From positions 248,001-312,000 of the forward strand of contig NZ_CP007451.1 of NCBI RefSeq assembly GCF_000626635.1: a stretch of DNA of 64,000 nucleotides, read 5' to 3'. How positions within the stretch are numbered: position 1 is the first letter of the stretch; each line of letters begins with the position of its first letter. The DNA comes from Draconibacterium orientale (GTDB lineage: Bacteria; Bacteroidota; Bacteroidia; Bacteroidales; Prolixibacteraceae). The notes beneath the pieces are model-generated. The model worked only from the letters and a program-made list of their open reading frames with translations, did no database searches and was not told the DNA's origin. Made by a program: the position numbers and the translations under genes. This document shows, piece after piece, positions 36-42,566 of this stretch.

Positions 36-263
36 TCCTTGTTTTTCCATGGTTTCCTTAACATTCCTCATGCGCTCCTTACAGTTTCTCTTGGATTCCT
101 TACCGGCCTTATGCCTTCCTTAACGTTGCTCATGAGTTCCTTAATGTTCCCCGTGTATTCCTTGTCGTTCCTCACGCGATCCTTACTGTTCCCCATCTAT
201 TCCTTAACGTTACTTGTGCATATATTCTGGTTTCCCGCGCATTCCTTAAGGTTTCCCGGACAA
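36..263. repeat. 21-bp imperfect tandem repeat array, about ten copies
   Basis: The motif TCCTTA (or a close variant) recurs at 55, 76, 97, 117, 138, 159, 180, 201, (222, degenerate) and 243, so the period is 21 bp with one 20-bp unit. The unit consensus is roughly TCCTTAACGTTCCTCATGC plus two variable bases. It lies downstream of the rhamnulose aldolase gene on the minus strand. Read on the minus strand, one frame gives a seven-residue pattern containing N-x-K-E, but it is broken by stops, so I do not call a gene. The period and copy positions are read directly; the role is unknown. Confidence 0.85.
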
Positions 264-27949: not shown

Positions 27950-29877
27950 GATCGAGTAGGAGGAAAATAAAATAGTTTTCCTCCTACTTTATTTTCCGAC
28001 CTCTCACACCACCGTACGTACGGTTCTCGTATACGGCGGTTCCTTAATTAACAACTTCTTACCTTACGATAACAATCCGAAAAGAAAACGTAGCCAGTAA
28101 TTCGTAACCTTTCATTGGTAATGGAGGTAGAAAGGATCCAGCTATGCGCTAATCGCCAATAGCCTTTCCTTGTATTCGCCCACTCCCATGCCTTGTACTT
28201 ATTTACACCCAACTTAATCAGGTTCTTACCCTTGGTCTTTATTCGTTTCCATTGTTTCCAAATAACCATGCGCAACCTTCGACGATACCATTCATCAACT
28301 TTGATTAGAAGCTTCTGCATATCTGCCAGCTTGAAGTATTGCACCCAACCAGTGACGTACTGCCGGAGCGCAACCTTTCTTCGGTCGTTTCCCCAACCGT
28401 TACTGCGGGATGTAAGTTCTCTGATTCTAGCTCTCATCTTATCCACACTTCTCGGGTGAATGCGCAGCCTGCCTTTCCCTCTAAATTTCCCTCTAAATTT
28501 ATAGAAAGAGTAACCAAGAAACCTAATGTTCCTGTTTGATGCAACCTTACTCTTGTCCCGATTGACTATTAAAAACAATTTCTTTTCAATAAAAGGAACG
28601 ATGTTCTTCATTGTCCGTTCGGCACTTCGTTGGCTTCGGCAGAAGATGACCAGGTCGTCGGCGTAGCGAACAAACTTATGGCCCCGCTTCTCTAGTTCCC
28701 TGTCCAGTTCATTAAGAAAAATATTACTCAATAATGGACTTAACGGTCCTCCCTGCGCCACCCCTTCATAGCTTTCTTCAAACTTACCGTCCTTCATCAC
28801 TCCTGCATTAAGGTATTTATGGATAAGCGATATGACCCGCCCATCTTTTACCTTTCGGGATAATACCTCAATGTGTTTGCTGTGGCATACTGTGTCAAAG
28901 AAACGTTCGAGGTCTAAATCAACTGCATAACCACAACCTTGCGTGATGTAAGCCTGCCATTTTTGAAGTGCCTGATGGGCACTGTGTTTTGGACGGAAAC
29001 CGTAACTGTGATCCGAAAACTCGGGGGCAAAGATCAACTGTAGTTGTTGTGCGATACTTTGTTGGATAACCCTGTCTACGACTGTGGGGATACCCAACTG
29101 ACGCTTCTTCCCGTTTTCTTTAGGTATATCCACCCGTCTCACAGGATTGGGGCGGTATTTACCTTTATGAATAGAGGCCAGTAACTTATCCTTGTGACAG
29201 ACAAGATAATCCTTTAAGGATTCAACTTGCATCTTATCAACACCTCCTGCTCCTTTATTCCGCTTAACTTGTTTGTAAGCTGTGTTTAGGTTGGAGGATG
29301 AAAGGATACGTTCTAACAATCCATTCTCTGACTGATAGTTGGGAGTGAGGTTGTTTTCTGTTATCTCTATAAAAGTCTGCCCTCCCGCATAGCCTTCGGA
29401 TGCCGTCCTATTCTTTTGCGGACAGGTCTTCGAATCATCAAAGATTTTCTGCATTGTTCCTTTCATTGAGTAACATTCATTTACTTCTCACTCATTAAGG
29501 TTCGGCCCTTCCCATAAGTTGTCGGTTATGGTACTATGGCCTCGGCTGACTTCTCACGATAAATCTTTTCCAACCGTGTTTCATACTCTGTTTCCACACC
29601 TCCGTGAGACCTCCCGCGGTAAGATAAATAACTTTCATTCCATCCTCCCGCACCATCTACACTCCAATGTCCGTGTAGTTTTGGACTTCGTTTTGTTTGG
29701 CAAACTTATCCCATTGGAAATGCCTAATGATGTTCGTGTTCCTCGGGTCAGAAATTTGCTTTCAGCTTCCTTCAGATTCCACCTCACGATGGACACCCTT
29801 GCCTTCGGCTAATGGTTGGCACTACAAACCCCCATTCAGGACTTTCACCCTATAGCTATCTACCATGCACGGCACAC
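27950..29877 (-). mobile_element. Group II intron, class C-like, inserted after the folD terminator
   Basis: The 5' end on the minus strand is GTGTGCCGTGCATGG at 29877, a GUGYG-type start. The 3' part shows a domain V-like hairpin at about 28005-28040 (arms around CCGTACGTACGG with a CGTATACG segment) and a domain VI-like hairpin (GTAGGAGGAAAA/TTTTCCTCCTAC, 27955-27988). The exact 3' boundary, near 27950, is uncertain. The reverse transcriptase gene occupies the middle. The 5' junction falls directly after the T-run of the folD terminator, the usual target of class C introns. Confidence 0.85.
28048..29466 (-). CDS. ltrA: Group II intron reverse transcriptase/maturase
   Basis: A 472-residue protein with reverse transcriptase blocks: RRVDIPKENGKKRQLGIPTVVDRVIQQ, the YGFRPKHSAHQAL block, VDLDLERFFD, GVAQGGPLSPLLSNI and the catalytic FVRYADD. 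The maturase/DNA-binding region follows (ELTSRSNGWG, VTGWVQYFKLADMQ). No HNH endonuclease domain is present at the C-terminus, which fits class C introns. It would splice and mobilise the surrounding intron. The frame is intact, so the intron may be active. Confidence 0.95.
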   Translation of the reverse strand: MKGTMQKIFDDSKTCPQKNRTASEGYAGGQTFIEITENNLTPNYQSENGLLERILSSSNLNTAYKQVKRNKGAGGVDKMQVESLKDYLVCHKDKLLASIHKGKYRPNPVRRVDIPKENGKKRQLGIPTVVDRVIQQSIAQQLQLIFAPEFSDHSYGFRPKHSAHQALQKWQAYITQGCGYAVDLDLERFFDTVCHSKHIEVLSRKVKDGRVISLIHKYLNAGVMKDGKFEESYEGVAQGGPLSPLLSNIFLNELDRELEKRGHKFVRYADDLVIFCRSQRSAERTMKNIVPFIEKKLFLIVNRDKSKVASNRNIRFLGYSFYKFRGKFRGKGRLRIHPRSVDKMRARIRELTSRSNGWGNDRRKVALRQYVTGWVQYFKLADMQKLLIKVDEWYRRRLRMVIWKQWKRIKTKGKNLIKLGVNKYKAWEWANTRKGYWRLAHSWILSTSITNERLRITGYVFFSDCYRKVRSC

Positions 29878-30804: not shown

Positions 30805-30894
30805 ATTGTCTAATTTCTCGCAAAGGCGCTAAGACGCCAGGTTATTATTATAGAACTGTCAATTGCGTTTTTTAATCGCCAGTGGATAATTGCC

Positions 30895-30950
30895 ACTTTC
30901 CAATGACCAGTGACTGATGACCAGTGTCCAATGACCAGTGACCAGTGACT
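30895..30950. repeat. Short tandem repeat of TGACCAGTG units
   Basis: Several copies of a CAATGACCAGTGAC-like unit lie between folD and ffh and touch the ffh stop codon. The reverse complement of the same unit (CACTGGTCATTAGTC) is repeated at 35521-35576 and once at 35281. Confidence 0.75.
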
Positions 30951-35175: not shown

Positions 35176-35911
35176 GATTAATTGTTTTTTATGTTGTTTA
35201 TGCGAAATTACGAGAAAATACCTTCGCTTTGGTCATTTATCTGAAAGAAAATGGAAATTCGGTTTTAGTTTGGTATTGGGCACTGGTCATTGGTTGACGG
35301 AAGCTCCCCTGATCAGGAAAGCCGGCATCAAGCTACTTTCTGCGTTTCATTGAAGCTGTTTTCCCTTTTTAAGGGAAAATGTCGACAGACAAAAGGGTAA
35401 AGCAGTTTTCAATACATTTTTTATTTTAATATCCGTACCCCTCATCCGTCAGTTGAGCTTGCGAAATCCCGTACTTTACATCGGGAACAGAAGGGTACTG
35501 AAAATAAAAAGAAAGGATGCTGGTTATTGGTCATTAGTCACTGGTCATTAGTCATTAGTCACTGGTCACTGGTCATTTCCGGTATTAAGCAACAATTTTA
35601 CAATTTCACAGTTTAGCAATTTAACAGTTTCACAATTTAACAGTTTATCAATCCTCCTCAATCTTCAATCCATCTTTTCTCAATCTTCAATCAACCGCAG
35701 CGCATCAAAGTCATCTCGTGTCTTCATTTAATAACATTTTAAAAATAAAAATCTCATTTTTTAGCAAATTGAACAGGATTGCTATTTTTAACTCAGTTTT
35801 TGAAACGAGCATACAATAATGCCTTTTATCCGAATAAAAGTATTGGGCGATGCGGGGTTCAAAAGTCATCTTTTGAATGAACAATTCAACGTATAAAAAA
35901 AACTGCAAATA
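35176..35911. repeat. Repeat-rich intergenic region upstream of the AGCS symporter
   Basis: From 35353 to 35500 lies copy B of the dispersed element seen at 10127-10231 (palindrome TTTTCCCTT..AAGGGAAAA, then GTCGACAGACAAAAGGGTA). From 35521 to 35576 come repeated CACTGGTCATTAGTC-type units. From about 35590 to 35655 there are repeats of CAATTTAACAGTTTCA. No gene is convincing; the open frames on the minus strand have no support. Confidence 0.75.
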
Positions 35912-38792: not shown

Positions 38793-39260
38793 TCATTCTT
38801 CGGGAATGTATTTTTTTAAACGATCGTAGTAATATTCCTGCTGAAGTTTTGGTAAGTTCTGCTCGAATCCTGTACATGTTCCGGTACTATCAATATAAAC
38901 CTTTAAAAATGCCTTGTTGGTTCGGTATTCCGTATTGCTTTTCGCATCAGAAAGTGCATCGCCAATCTGCCAAACATCAACATCATAATCTCGTTGGCCA
39001 TCCATATCAAATTGTGAAGTTACAGCCGGCTTAATGCTTTTCGAATAACCAACCATCATTCTCTCTGATACTTCGTACACCAAAACTTTTTCACCTTCAT
39101 TGGCGGTATTAATTTCGGTAGGCAGTCCAACTCTTGAATACACTATTTTTTCCTTTTGTCCAACAATACCATGGGACAATGCTTTGTTCGTAATTTTCTT
39201 TTGAAAAGTACAAGCGGCAATCGCAAATAGCATTACTGTTAACAATAGCCAATTTTTCAT
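38793..39260 (-). CDS. Small lipoprotein of unknown function
   Basis: A 155-residue protein with a lipobox (LFAIAACTFQ; lipid Cys about residue 17). The rest is polar with no recognised domain. It is convergent with the sialidase-like gene (10 bp apart), so they probably share a boundary region. I cannot assign a function. Confidence 0.7.
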   Translation of the reverse strand: MKNWLLLTVMLFAIAACTFQKKITNKALSHGIVGQKEKIVYSRVGLPTEINTANEGEKVLVYEVSERMMVGYSKSIKPAVTSQFDMDGQRDYDVDVWQIGDALSDAKSNTEYRTNKAFLKVYIDSTGTCTGFEQNLPKLQQEYYYDRLKKYIPEE

Positions 39261-39454
39261 TTGGTAAGTTTAATCGTTTATTAATAGCCTACAAATTAAA
39301 CACAACCATTAATATTAACTCAAACATTTTAGCTGTTTATTACGAATTTGTTTTTTTTCGAATAAGAATTGAACCTTCGGAAACAATTAGTCCACAAAGT
39401 GTCCTGTTTTACATTATAAAAGGTAAGCAGTATTGCTTTTTGCCTCAACATTCC

Positions 39455-39865
39455 AGCTCATTACTTCTAATTCTGAGCTCAGAGCTCAATTGAAGTACCT
39501 TTTATATTCTATTTTGAAGTTCGGAGCTCAAAGTTTGAAGTTATTAGGTACCTCCCCCTACATCATTTCCTAATTCTTTAAGATAAAAGCTATTTATTTT
39601 AAGCTCTGAGCTCAAAGTTAGCAGCTCAGAAGTCCCCCCTCCCTACTTCATTTCTAAAATCATTAAGTTCGGAGCTCATTGTTTGCAGCTCTGAAGTCCC
39701 CTCTTCAAGCTATTTCCTCGGTATTTGAAGCTCTGAGCTTCTTCTTTAAAGCTATTTTCTCCTTACATTAAGCTTTTAAGTGGGAGTAGGTACTTCCGAG
39801 GTGGGTCAGGGTACCTCGGAGGTGGGTGGGAGTACCTCTGAGGTAGGGGTAGGAACTTCGGAAGT
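39455..39865. repeat. Array of 20 phased 11-bp palindrome-like sites with 21-bp period
   Basis: Eleven-base units of the form A-(G/C)-Y-T-C-N-G-A-R-(C/G)-T or eroded versions start at 39455, 39476, 39497, 39518, 39539, 39560, 39581, 39602, 39623, 39645, 39666, 39687, 39708, 39729, 39750, 39771, 39792, 39813, 39834 and 39855. All steps are 21 bp except one of 22. Several are perfect palindromes (AGCTCAGAGCT, AGCTCTGAGCT, ACCTCTGAGGT, ACCTCGGAGGT, ACTTCGGAAGT) with paired changes in both arms. No gene is present in 39261-40074 outside this array. Spacing of two helical turns suggests ordered protein binding; function unknown. Confidence 0.85.
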
Positions 39866-40023
39866 GGGTTGATAAAGTTCTAAACTAATCTATTGAAGTT
39901 GCTTACTCCAATTAAAAATAAATTAAGCCGTTGAAGCGACTAAAAGTTGGAATAGTTGATAAACAATAACAACGCTATCATTTTGTTACAGCAAACAGAA
40001 AAGTGAAACTATGAACGCGCCAC

Positions 40024-40054
40024 TTTGTACTTTAAACAATGAAGCGTATTTTTG
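40024..40054 (+). promoter_or_regulatory. Consensus Bacteroidota promoter of mutS2
   Basis: TTTG at 40024-40027, exactly 19 bases, then TATTTTTG at 40047-40054: a perfect TTTG-N19-TAnnTTTG match, about 20 bases before the mutS2 ATG at 40075. Confidence 0.8.
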
Positions 40055-40074
40055 CAGCTGATTAAGAAAAGGCT

Positions 40075-42566
40075 ATGCAAAACATTTATCCAAATAATTT
40101 CGAGGCAAAAATTGGTTTCGACCGCATTCGCGAAATGCTCACCAACAAGTGCATCAGCACCATGGGAGACGAGTGGGTGCAGGAAATGCATTTTCAAACG
40201 GGGTACGACACCATTTTGCAACAACTGAATGAGGTGAATGAATTTTGCCGAATCGTCCGCGAATTCGATAGTTTTCCGGCTACGCATTTTTACGACCTGC
40301 GCGAGGCTTTGCAAAAAATCCGACTGGAAGGCCGCTTCCTCGAACCCGAAGAATTGTTCGATTTGAAACGCTCGCTGGAATCCGTTCGTGCCATCGTTAA
40401 TTTCTTTTCGAAACAGGAAGATGAAGTCTTCCCTATCCTGAAACAGAAAACATCGCGCGTGCAGGTGTTTCCGTACATCTACGACCGCATTGATGTAATC
40501 ATCAATAAATTTGGAAAAATTCGCGACAACGCATCGCCCGAGCTGGCACAAACCCGCCGCAGCATTATGAATATGCAGTCGAACATGTCGAAACGATTGC
40601 ATGCCATTTTAAAACAGGCACAAAAAGATGGTTGGGTAGATGAAGATGCGTCGGTATCGATCCGCGACGGGCGTGCCGTTATTCCTGTTGCGGCTGCCAA
40701 CAAACGTAAACTAAAAGGTATTGTTTACGATGAGTCGGCCACCGGAAAAACCTCGTATGTTGAGCCCAACGAAATTGTTGAAATGAACAACGAAATCCGC
40801 GAACTGGAATATGCCGAACGCCGCGAGATCATTAAAATACTCACCAATTTTGCCAACGATATCCGTCCTTACCTAGAGGAGCTGGCGTATTCGTACGATT
40901 TCCTTGGCGAAATGGATTTTATCAGAGCAAAAGCCTTGCTGGCCGTTGAATTTGATGCCATCCGCCCCGAATTTAAAGAGGAGCCAATTGTTGAATGGTA
41001 CAACGCCATTCATCCGCTGCTTTTAAAAACGTTACAAAAGGAAAACCGGAAAATTGTTCCGCTCGATATAAAACTTACCGACGAGAAACATATTTTACTC
41101 ATCTCAGGACCAAACGCCGGAGGTAAATCAGTTTGCCTGAAAACCACAGGATTACTACAATACATGCTGCAATGTGGTTTGCTTATTCCGGTGAACGAAG
41201 CCAGCCGCACCGGAGTTTTCGAGCAACTTTTTATCGATATTGGCGACGAGCAGTCGATGGAAAACGACCTGAGTACTTACAGTTCGCACCTGATGAACAT
41301 GAAACATTTTGTGCGCAACTGTAACGAAAAAACGCTGATTCTGATTGATGAATTTGGTACCGGGACTGAGCCGATGCTGGGTGGCGCCATTGCCGAATCG
41401 ATTCTGGAAAAGTTAACTGAGCTCGGCACTTTTGGTGTAATTACCACACACTACACCAATCTGAAACACTTTGCCTCGTCGGCCGAGGGGATAATAAACG
41501 GCGCCATGCTTTACGATTCGCAGCATATGAATCCTTTGTTTAAACTGGACATTGGCAAACCGGGCAGTTCGTTTGCTTTCGAAATTGCACGAAAAATAGG
41601 ATTACCCGAAGATATTTTGGAACAAGCCACCGAAAAAGTGGGAAAAGACCATATTGATTTCGACCGCAACCTGCGCAAAATTAACCGCGACAAACGCTAC
41701 TGGGAAACCAAACGAATGAAGATTCGCAAAGTGGAAAAAATTATCGACGACACGGCGGAAACCTACGAATCGGAATTGCAGGAAATACAAAAGCAGCGGA
41801 AAGAAATTCTGAAAAAAGCCAAAGAAGAAGCCGATGCCTTGCTGAAAGGTGTTAACAAGCGAATTGAAAACACCATCCAGGAAATAAAAAAAGCACAGGC
41901 CGATAAGGAAAAACAAAAGAAGCACGCGCCAAACTGAGCGATCTGAAAAAAGATATCGACCGCAAAACAACGGGCAACGATTCGCAGATCTCGAAAAAGA
42001 TGGAGAAGTTACGCCAACGCGAAGACAACCGGAACAAGCACCGTCCCGATGAGTCGAAAAAGCCGTTAAGCAAAGAAAAGCTGGAGAAAAGTATTGAAAT
42101 GCGCCCCGGCGATAAAGTGAGAATAAAGGGGCAAGATACCATTGGCGACCTTATTGAAATTAACGAAAAAAATGCGGTGGTTGCTTTTGGCCAGCTGATG
42201 ACAACAATACCAAGTAAAAACCTGGAACGAATCAGTAATAACGAAGCTAAAAAGCTGGATAAAAACCGCGGCGGAAGAGCATCGGTTCTCACCGAAGGTT
42301 TCTCGGAGCGCCGCCTGAGTTTTAAACCCGAAATTGATATTCGCGGGCAAAGAGCTGATGAAGCAATCTCTAAAATCACAGCGTTTATTGATGAAGCAAT
42401 AATGTTTGAATCGGGTCAACTTCGAATCCTCCATGGAAAAGGGAATGGAATTCTTAGACAAATTATTCGCGATTACCTGCGCTCGGAACCCATGGTTCGT
42501 AGCTACAAAGACGAGCATGTTGACTTTGGCGGCGCGGGAATTACAGTCGTTAATTTAGCCTTATAA
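40075..42566 (+). CDS. mutS2: MutS2 (ribosome-rescue/anti-recombination) protein, with a single-base frameshift
   Basis: About 830 residues if joined. The MutS core ATPase (ISGPNAGGKSVCLKTTG; Walker B LILIDEFGTGTEP; THYTNLKHF) and a long coiled coil are in the first frame. The first frame stops at about 41937; adding one A in the A-run at about 41909-41913 restores TKEARAKLSDLKKDID and continues to the KOW-like part and a C-terminal Smr domain (DIRGQRADEAISK, LHGKGNGILRQ). MutS2 senses collided ribosomes and limits recombination. The remaining sequence is well conserved, so assembly error is likely. Confidence 0.92.

Follow-up and report, generated by a model that had tools for sequence, protein, structure and literature searches.

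Intergenic arrays of short sites at a two-turn pitch in Draconibacterium orientale, possible phased platforms for dimeric proteins

Introduction

What keeps a long series of short, palindrome-like sites in step with the DNA helix in a gap between two genes? The question is raised by one set of sites repeating every 21 bp, here called the main array, in a 64,000-nucleotide stretch of the Draconibacterium orientale chromosome (NZ_CP007451.1, positions 248,001 to 312,000; hereafter the window). A sequence-only reading had described twenty phased palindromes with a single slip and covarying arms, partly overlapped by a repetitive peptide frame, and had suggested a nucleoprotein or regulatory array. 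To our knowledge, little chromosome-organisation machinery is known in Bacteroidota. In this study, we analysed the pitch and symmetry of the main array, its counterparts in the host genome and in relatives, and the explanations that could account for them. We tentatively regard the main array as one of a class of Draconibacterium arrays whose sites lie between genes, two helical turns apart. These arrays may be phased platforms on which dimeric proteins, at present putative, would bind cooperatively along one face of the DNA, and we give this reading a probability of a little under one half.

Results

A two-turn pitch in the main array

Twenty-one sites lie at 39455-39886 with a 21-bp pitch, and the register is broken once by a +1 slip. 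Unit starts fall at 39455+21k (k = 0-9) and then at 39666+21k (k = 0-10), and the array has the following parts:

39455 to 39654, no strand: first half of the main array, ten sites at 39455+21k, AG-type where recognisable (AGYTCNGARCT)
39655 to 39665, no strand: slip-bearing spacer of 11 bp in place of 10 bp, between units 39644 and 39666
39666 to 39781, no strand: second half of the main array, AG-type sites at 39666, 39687, 39708, 39729, 39750 and 39771
39792 to 39865, no strand: block of four AC-type sites, ACTTCCGAGGT, ACCTCGGAGGT, ACCTCTGAGGT and ACTTCGGAAGT, the latter three being perfect palindromes
39876 to 39886, no strand: final recognisable site AGTTCTAAACT, with four of five arm pairs complementary

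The match rates at lags 21, 42 and 63 summed to 1.327, compared with 0.778 ± 0.037 in 1000 dinucleotide shuffles of the array, about 15 standard deviations above; the highest sum reached by these shuffles at any period from 7 to 59 was 0.965. At single lags the match rate was 0.46 for lag 21 and 0.38 for lag 7. All 11 window occurrences of the consensus ASYTCNGARST (0.48 expected) fall inside the main array. The pitch and the single slip proposed earlier are thus real, with 21 sites in place of twenty, but "twenty palindromes" overstated the symmetry: at least four of the five arm pairs are complementary in 10 of the 21 sites (perfect in 6 of them), three pairs in 6 sites and at most two in 5.

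A class of arrays with one pitch and many motifs

The host genome is a single contig of 5,132,075 bp. We sampled about 2.0 Mb of it in 20-kb stretches, which together with the window gave 2.052 Mb (about 40% of the genome), including 223,759 bp of intergenic DNA as defined by an open reading frame (ORF) mask of 90 amino acids (aa). Below, G000 denotes the host, other G numbers relatives and L numbers loci. Pooled intergenic autocorrelation was in excess at lags 7 and 14 (16.0 and 11.3 per thousand, with lags 6 and 8 also raised by about 8) and at lags 21, 42, 63, 84 and 105 (11.5, 9.3, 2.8, 2.6 and 1.5 per thousand). Scan windows above the score threshold numbered 22 at period 21 and 20 at period 42, largely from the same arrays, then 10 at period 14, 6 each at 16 and 28, and no more than 3 at each remaining period between 10 and 60; one mononucleotide shuffle gave none at the six periods tested. 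A slightly lower threshold returned 28 rows, 8 of them flagged as heptad-like, including the left part of the main array.

By inspection, 15 loci carry clear 21- or 42-bp arrays (L154, L105:4750, L107 and L172 fall outside this count). L134 and L151 were added from motif scans, giving about 17 intergenic arrays in the sample, each with a pitch of 21 or 41-42 bp, its own short conserved site and a free spacer. Other long periods hardly occur, except in a separate heptamer-repeat class. The pitch can be exact, as in L160 (7/7 distances of 21 bp) and L118 (5/5 distances of 42 bp). Within arrays, cores are conserved while spacer identity is near chance (0.25-0.47), a contrast partly built in by splitting core and spacer columns according to conservation. 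ORF-based gap orientation could be assigned for 13 of the 17 arrays: 6 lie in convergent gaps, 4 in divergent and 3 in co-directional ones. Convergent gaps make up 19.6% by length, which is suggestive of an excess of arrays there.

The site motif differs from array to array, and some motif families recur at 2-5 host loci:

43 to 252 of the window, no strand: second 21-bp array in the window, motif TTCCTTAACGTTCCTCATGCA, unrelated to the main array, motif family of L198
Window 43-252 and L198 (G000:C1:4641690-4641960): TCCTTAACG-type arrays
L160: TTCTCCC-type array of eight sites
L188, 5291-5522 (G000:C1:3345291-3345522): six TGCGAGC-type sites, then six GCTCGCA-type sites in mirror order, between convergent DUF4924 and DCC1-like genes
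L177 and L134: TTAAACAAATGTTTAAG-type arrays, every 42 bp
L118 and L142: TTTCCGC-N4-GCGGAAA-type arrays, every 42 bp
L186 and L101: TTGCTTTAGTTGAAGTGCT-type arrays

Within the host, motif pairings far above the shuffled maxima linked window 43-252 with L198, L101 with L186, L118 with L142, L177 with L134 and L124 with L151; that of L177 with L187 was modestly above. Across genomes, L277 (relative G007) paired with L029 (Sunxiuqinia indica). The motif of the main array behaved as a singleton. ASYTCNGARST occurred in the host sample 11 times in intergenic DNA, always in the main array, and 14 times in coding or other DNA (18 in total after shuffling), and a search of the host with the main array recovered only the array itself. 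A main-motif match at L134:2978 (23.0, shuffled maximum 20.1) does not look like an array and was set aside. MAFFT alignment lost the register in segments of the main array and likewise in L118/L142.

At L101 (4993-5125, G000:C1), the 21-bp array begins just past the apparent 3' end of a transfer RNA (tRNA), as read by eye, and its unit TTGAGTTCAAGTCC resembles by eye the T-arm GGTTCGAGTCC of this adjoining putative tRNA. Heptad (TGACCAG/TGGTCAT-type) and octamer (AACAATTT) tandem repeats at window positions 30879-30949 and 35520-35652 form a separate intergenic class, present at several places in the sampled host genome.

Arm covariation and the RNA alternative

In the main array, 73 of the 105 arm pairs are complementary, compared with 61.1 ± 3.4 when the right-arm columns are shuffled (P = 0.0005), and P is 0.020 when related blocks are shuffled separately. 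The covariation noted earlier therefore exceeds that of shuffled arms. By block, P is 0.034 for the 17 units outside 39792-39855 and 0.50 for the four-unit AC block alone. The signal comes from the pairs at distances 1 and 4. The example given for it, ACCTC/GAGGT versus ACTTC/GAAGT, did not survive: it concerns the distance-3 pair, which matches in 8/21 sites with 8.3 expected, that is, without any covariation over the whole array.

A third array of the same type, besides those of the host and of Draconibacterium mangrovi (see below), lies at a different locus in relative G006 (L433) and has partly different arms (ACCTAATAGGT, ACCTTAAAGGT, ACTTCAGAAGT). It was found from a marginal blastn-type match (E 0.0024) of the D. 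mangrovi array; the other marginal non-self matches of this query were in G044 (inside ORFs) and G022. In L433, 52/84 arm pairs match, compared with 41.4 ± 3.0 (P = 0.0006, or about 0.01 after correction, the phase being the best of 21). Pooling the three arrays gave 152/230 pairs, compared with 125.6 ± 5.4, a value reached by 0/20000 shuffles. The innermost pair, with one central base between its members, showed the strongest covariation of all distances (32/46 versus 18.7 in the pool; P = 0.004 in the main array alone and 0.002 in the G006 array alone). Distances 4 and 3 followed (P = 0.007 and 0.018), and covariation was slight at distances 2 and 5. Clear palindromy is found in the main, L433, L118 and L177/L134 arrays.

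Paired arms could also reflect transcripts that function as a series of small hairpins or a single long one, an explanation that we consider improbable. RNA folding lends it something: 7/15 arrays (main, L118, L142, L173, L177, L180 and L188) had z scores of -3 or below on both strands (40 shuffles each), with -4.7/-3.4 for the main array and -6.4/-6.1 for L188, and the covariation in the main array and L433, with distances 3 and 4 also covarying in the pool, would suit stems. However, the strongest covariation falls on a pair one base apart, which RNA could not form, and mismatches show no G-T excess (main array: 4 G-T, 7 A-C; L433: 2 G-T, 5 A-C). The arrays at window 43-252, L101, L163, L187 and L198 gave no fold signal on either strand, and by eye the L177 array sits between two terminator-like hairpins. 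One long hairpin at L188 was considered and dropped: the fold is strong, but an arm pairs about equally well with that of another species (0.625) as with its own partner (0.633). Rfam (4227 families) gave no array match at gathering scores when the window, L160, L177, L186 and L188 were searched. Because the innermost pair cannot form in a hairpin and the mismatches lack a G-T excess, the dyad symmetry seems to belong to, and to be kept in, duplex DNA.

A peptide frame that follows from the palindrome

The TSEVG frame described earlier exists: it starts with GTG just past the TAA at 39777, runs for 30 codons and ends with a TGA whose last base is 39872 (39780-39872), with four TSEVG units. A pitch divisible by 3 would fit coding repeats, real or decayed, that recur every 7 residues. 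L154 (G000:C1:3060953) looks coding, L029 of Sunxiuqinia lies in a long open frame, and an ORF runs over the L425 and L426 arrays, both from outside the genus. Nevertheless, we give this explanation almost no credence for the class. The residues TSEV are a reading of the palindrome ACTTCNGAAGT, and stops cross most of the main array. By eye, D. mangrovi and L433 retain the palindromes and not the linker residues, and no conserved frame was seen in them. Elsewhere, L186 units contain in-frame stops (TTTAG, TTGAG and TTCAG alternate) and the L188 array flips orientation midway. The coding pressure that had been proposed beside the palindromes is therefore unsupported.

At L425 (1331-1650, relative G046, of another family), 21-bp repeats of opposite orientation, CAAGTGGT and ACCACTTG, meet at an A-rich centre; those on the right-hand side are near-identical.

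Conservation and turnover among relatives

We next turn to the relatives. In D. mangrovi (L004), the gap next to the MutS2-like gene holds an array at the same pitch. Averaged over unit offsets with at least five units, site identity between this array and the main array is 0.479 and spacer identity 0.319; one-to-one orthology of units is not claimed, several offsets scoring alike. The L188 array, found in 6/13 genomes inspected including the host, gives the clearest view of what is kept. Aligned from the centre across six species, core positions had a mean identity of 0.93 and other positions 0.65, with the pitch unchanged, and 64/72 core sites (12 per species) were intact and in register. 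L221 carries an extra, seventh site on the left and has changes in six cores, and in L222 the register shifts by 1 bp before the last site. G012 and G003 cleanly lack the L188 array.

The L186 array was present in 3/13 genomes inspected, and a later match added G024. We built a model of this family from sequence only, using seven segments of four loci, whose own loci match by construction. It matched 27/61 genomes at E ≤ 0.01, and at E ≤ 1e-5 it matched 14/37 same-genus genomes and 0/24 others; five host loci reached E < 1e-6. Over nine loci of the family, the distance between motifs was exactly 21 bp in 76 of the 80 cases between 15 and 27 bp. Array content varies among the sampled relatives, with two arrays in 19.0 kb of intergenic DNA in G007 and none in 18.7 kb in G031.

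The platform reading has its strongest rival in mutation that proceeds by 21-bp steps: tandem duplication of 21 or 42 bp and palindrome correction by template switching would make and homogenise the arrays without any function. We regard it as unlikely, though it has real evidence behind it. An 84-bp higher-order repeat lies inside the main array (39505-39667). In L421 (1405-1650, relative G008), two 21-bp unit types in strict A-B alternation form near-identical 42-bp blocks, which looks like a recent 42-bp duplication. Arrays come and go between species, being present in some orthologous gaps and absent from others. In the gaps orthologous to L186 in G005 and G007 (L205 and L206) the array is absent and, by eye, one unit apparently remains, so that arrays may grow or collapse at a fixed locus. 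The excerpted text of PMC4060949 discusses the conversion of imperfect into perfect palindromes through template switching. Against such a process stand the near-chance spacers beside conserved cores (with the built-in part of that contrast noted above), the L188 sites that outlast their spacers across six species, and the one period common to unrelated motifs. Template switching would also not readily explain covariation at the innermost pair. In 13/15 sets, similarity between units did not rise significantly with proximity, so most arrays are not fresh tandem copies.

Spread by a transposase, as a mobile or REP/BIME-like element, would agree with several same-motif loci in one genome and with orthologous gaps that have or lack an array. 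We consider it very improbable, given the many unrelated motifs and the copies that vary in unit number and order. By blastn, the main array had no match in 72,556 plasmid or 50,697 phage records, although degenerate sites could escape such a search. A viral origin was rejected as well: the exact three-site L160 pattern matched 14 stretches in viral contigs, 10 of them inside called ORFs; L308 is a 21-bp repeat within an ORF, L301 lies at a stretch end and reads like a coding heptad, and L303 contains 7-bp-type repeats. The four-site L188 motif matched 100 viral stretches by pattern (80 loci among the matches listed). One viral contig (L302, 2126-2174) holds three 21-bp units of GGAGGTTCTCCC type with no ORF called.

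Neighbouring genes

The main array occupies a divergent gap between two neighbours:

38793 to 39260, minus strand: left neighbour, a 155-aa ORF that points away from the array; its start resembles by eye that of a lipoprotein, and Pfam gave no match
40075 to 41937, plus strand: right neighbour, a MutS2-like gene with a MutS_V domain

The nearest named relatives of the MutS2-like protein are those of D. sediminis (98%) and D. mangrovi (97%). The gene is split into a 620-aa ORF with MutS_V (40075-41937, plus strand) and a 188-aa ORF with MSSS and Smr (42000-42566, plus strand). Its close relatives, among the matches listed, are mostly single open frames of about 830-860 aa, and the split may be a real break or a sequencing error. 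A scan of 39200-40120 found no sigma-70-like sites (2.1 expected), with a model that does not cover Bacteroidota promoters, and two terminator-like matches (0.6 expected), one of which is a perfect main-array site. Elsewhere in the window, three Rfam matches mark a group II intron at 27951-29793 on the minus strand.

Discussion

A reading at the level of DNA fits the arrays best because of the two-turn pitch, the dyad symmetry at the innermost pair, the sites that outlast their spacers and the pitch shared by unrelated motifs. In this respect the earlier suggestion of a nucleoprotein or regulatory array is partly supported; the main array does not resemble a common regulon operator. We propose that short, often dyad-symmetric sites are set on one helix face, the 21-bp pitch being 2 x 10.5 bp and the spacers free. 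Dimeric DNA-binding proteins would occupy consecutive sites cooperatively, each touching the next, and together the bound dimers would form a short patch or filament on one face of the helix. Such a filament or patch may insulate, regulate or topologically mark the gene gap.

Several known systems resemble these arrays in part. Plasmid iterons combine a conserved site with a spacer and repeat about every two turns, whereas the Draconibacterium arrays carry many different motifs on one chromosome. Clustered regularly interspaced short palindromic repeats (CRISPR) have a conserved repeat of about 23-50 bp, unique spacers, a regular pitch and cas genes; here the conserved part is about 5-13 bp and the whole unit 21 or 41-42 bp, too short for CRISPR. 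Repetitive extragenic palindromes (REP) and bacterial interspersed mosaic elements (BIME) are intergenic palindromes, sometimes in series. The excerpted account in PMC3733652 gives REP as small palindromes of 20-40 bp in high copy. In Draconibacterium, by contrast, the motif varies by array while the pitch is constant, and we found no high-copy single family. Heptameric short tandem repeats such as TAACTGA are intergenic in Beggiatoaceae, Cyanobacteria and Bacteroidetes, according to the part of PMC4679880 available to us. They share with our arrays the intergenic location and the occurrence in some Bacteroidetes, and the host has heptad arrays of its own. However, their 7-bp units run head to tail, while the 21-bp arrays are otherwise weak at 7 bp (m7 0.19-0.35). 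Within the main array the 7-bp signal is 0.42 in the left half, the part flagged as heptad-like, and 0.34 in the right half, and 7 bp is not its dominant period.

The closest parallel is with promoters bound by BvgA. The available portion of PMC7250471 describes head-to-head dimers on a single DNA face, 22 bp or two turns from centre to centre, at up to six sites per promoter; several sites are degenerate and some promoters have poor sites only. The main and L433 arrays, with their 21-bp pitch and dyad symmetry, share this same-face spacing of dyad sites. As far as that portion goes, BvgA differs in having at most six sites and a known regulon, whereas the Draconibacterium arrays have 6-21 sites, many motifs, often convergent or divergent gaps and putative binders. 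The earlier remark that the array fell outside known repeat classes was borne out for REP/BIME, heptamers, CRISPR and, in the five array loci searched, Rfam. Among the matches listed, the open-access papers that we searched describe no arrays combining a 21-bp pitch with changing motifs; most subscription papers lie outside this coverage, which is incomplete, and the class is apparently a new kind of repeat.

A number of observations weigh against phased platforms. The gap of the main array was inspected in 11 relatives, of which D. mangrovi alone has the array. Used as a blastn-type query, the D. mangrovi array failed to recover the host array. Place, pitch and site motif are therefore what links the two, and the D. 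mangrovi array alone shows no significant arm covariation (P = 0.13). No isolated intergenic copies of the main motif were found in the 2.05-Mb sample, although degenerate single sites could escape; hence the motif is not like an ordinary regulon operator. The L160, L198 and window 43-252 arrays are not palindromic. The pitch is inexact in L151 and L187 (41-42 bp) and in G013, where the gap of the host L177 array holds a different motif (CAGGA) mostly in 20-21-bp steps. Duplication plays a part, as the 84-bp repeat of the main array and the alternating 42-bp blocks of L421 indicate, and adjacent units are more alike than distant ones in L173 (P = 0.008) and L198 (P = 0.030), with window 43-252 (0.056) and L277 (0.068) borderline. 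A dimer of fixed specificity alone would not make both arms vary together. Finally, the binder or binders are putative, and either many of them or a single one of loose specificity would be required for unrelated motifs to share one pitch.

A bolder form of the platform reading, which we think rather unlikely, would be a chromatin-like layer in Draconibacterium and its relatives, comprising tens of gaps with array-specific sites locked to two turns. Filament-forming proteins would accept many motifs provided that symmetry and phase hold, and would insulate adjacent and often convergent transcription units. Motifs could then drift in identity while symmetry and pitch stay.

A repeat class set by helical pitch and symmetry and not by sequence would be missed by ordinary repeat and motif searches for shared letters. 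If the arrays are mutational in origin, a process that steps by 21 bp and corrects arms would be an unusual mutational signature in its own right. If they bind protein, they would offer a Bacteroidota example, directly open to testing, of a nucleoprotein assembled in phase on a single face of the DNA.
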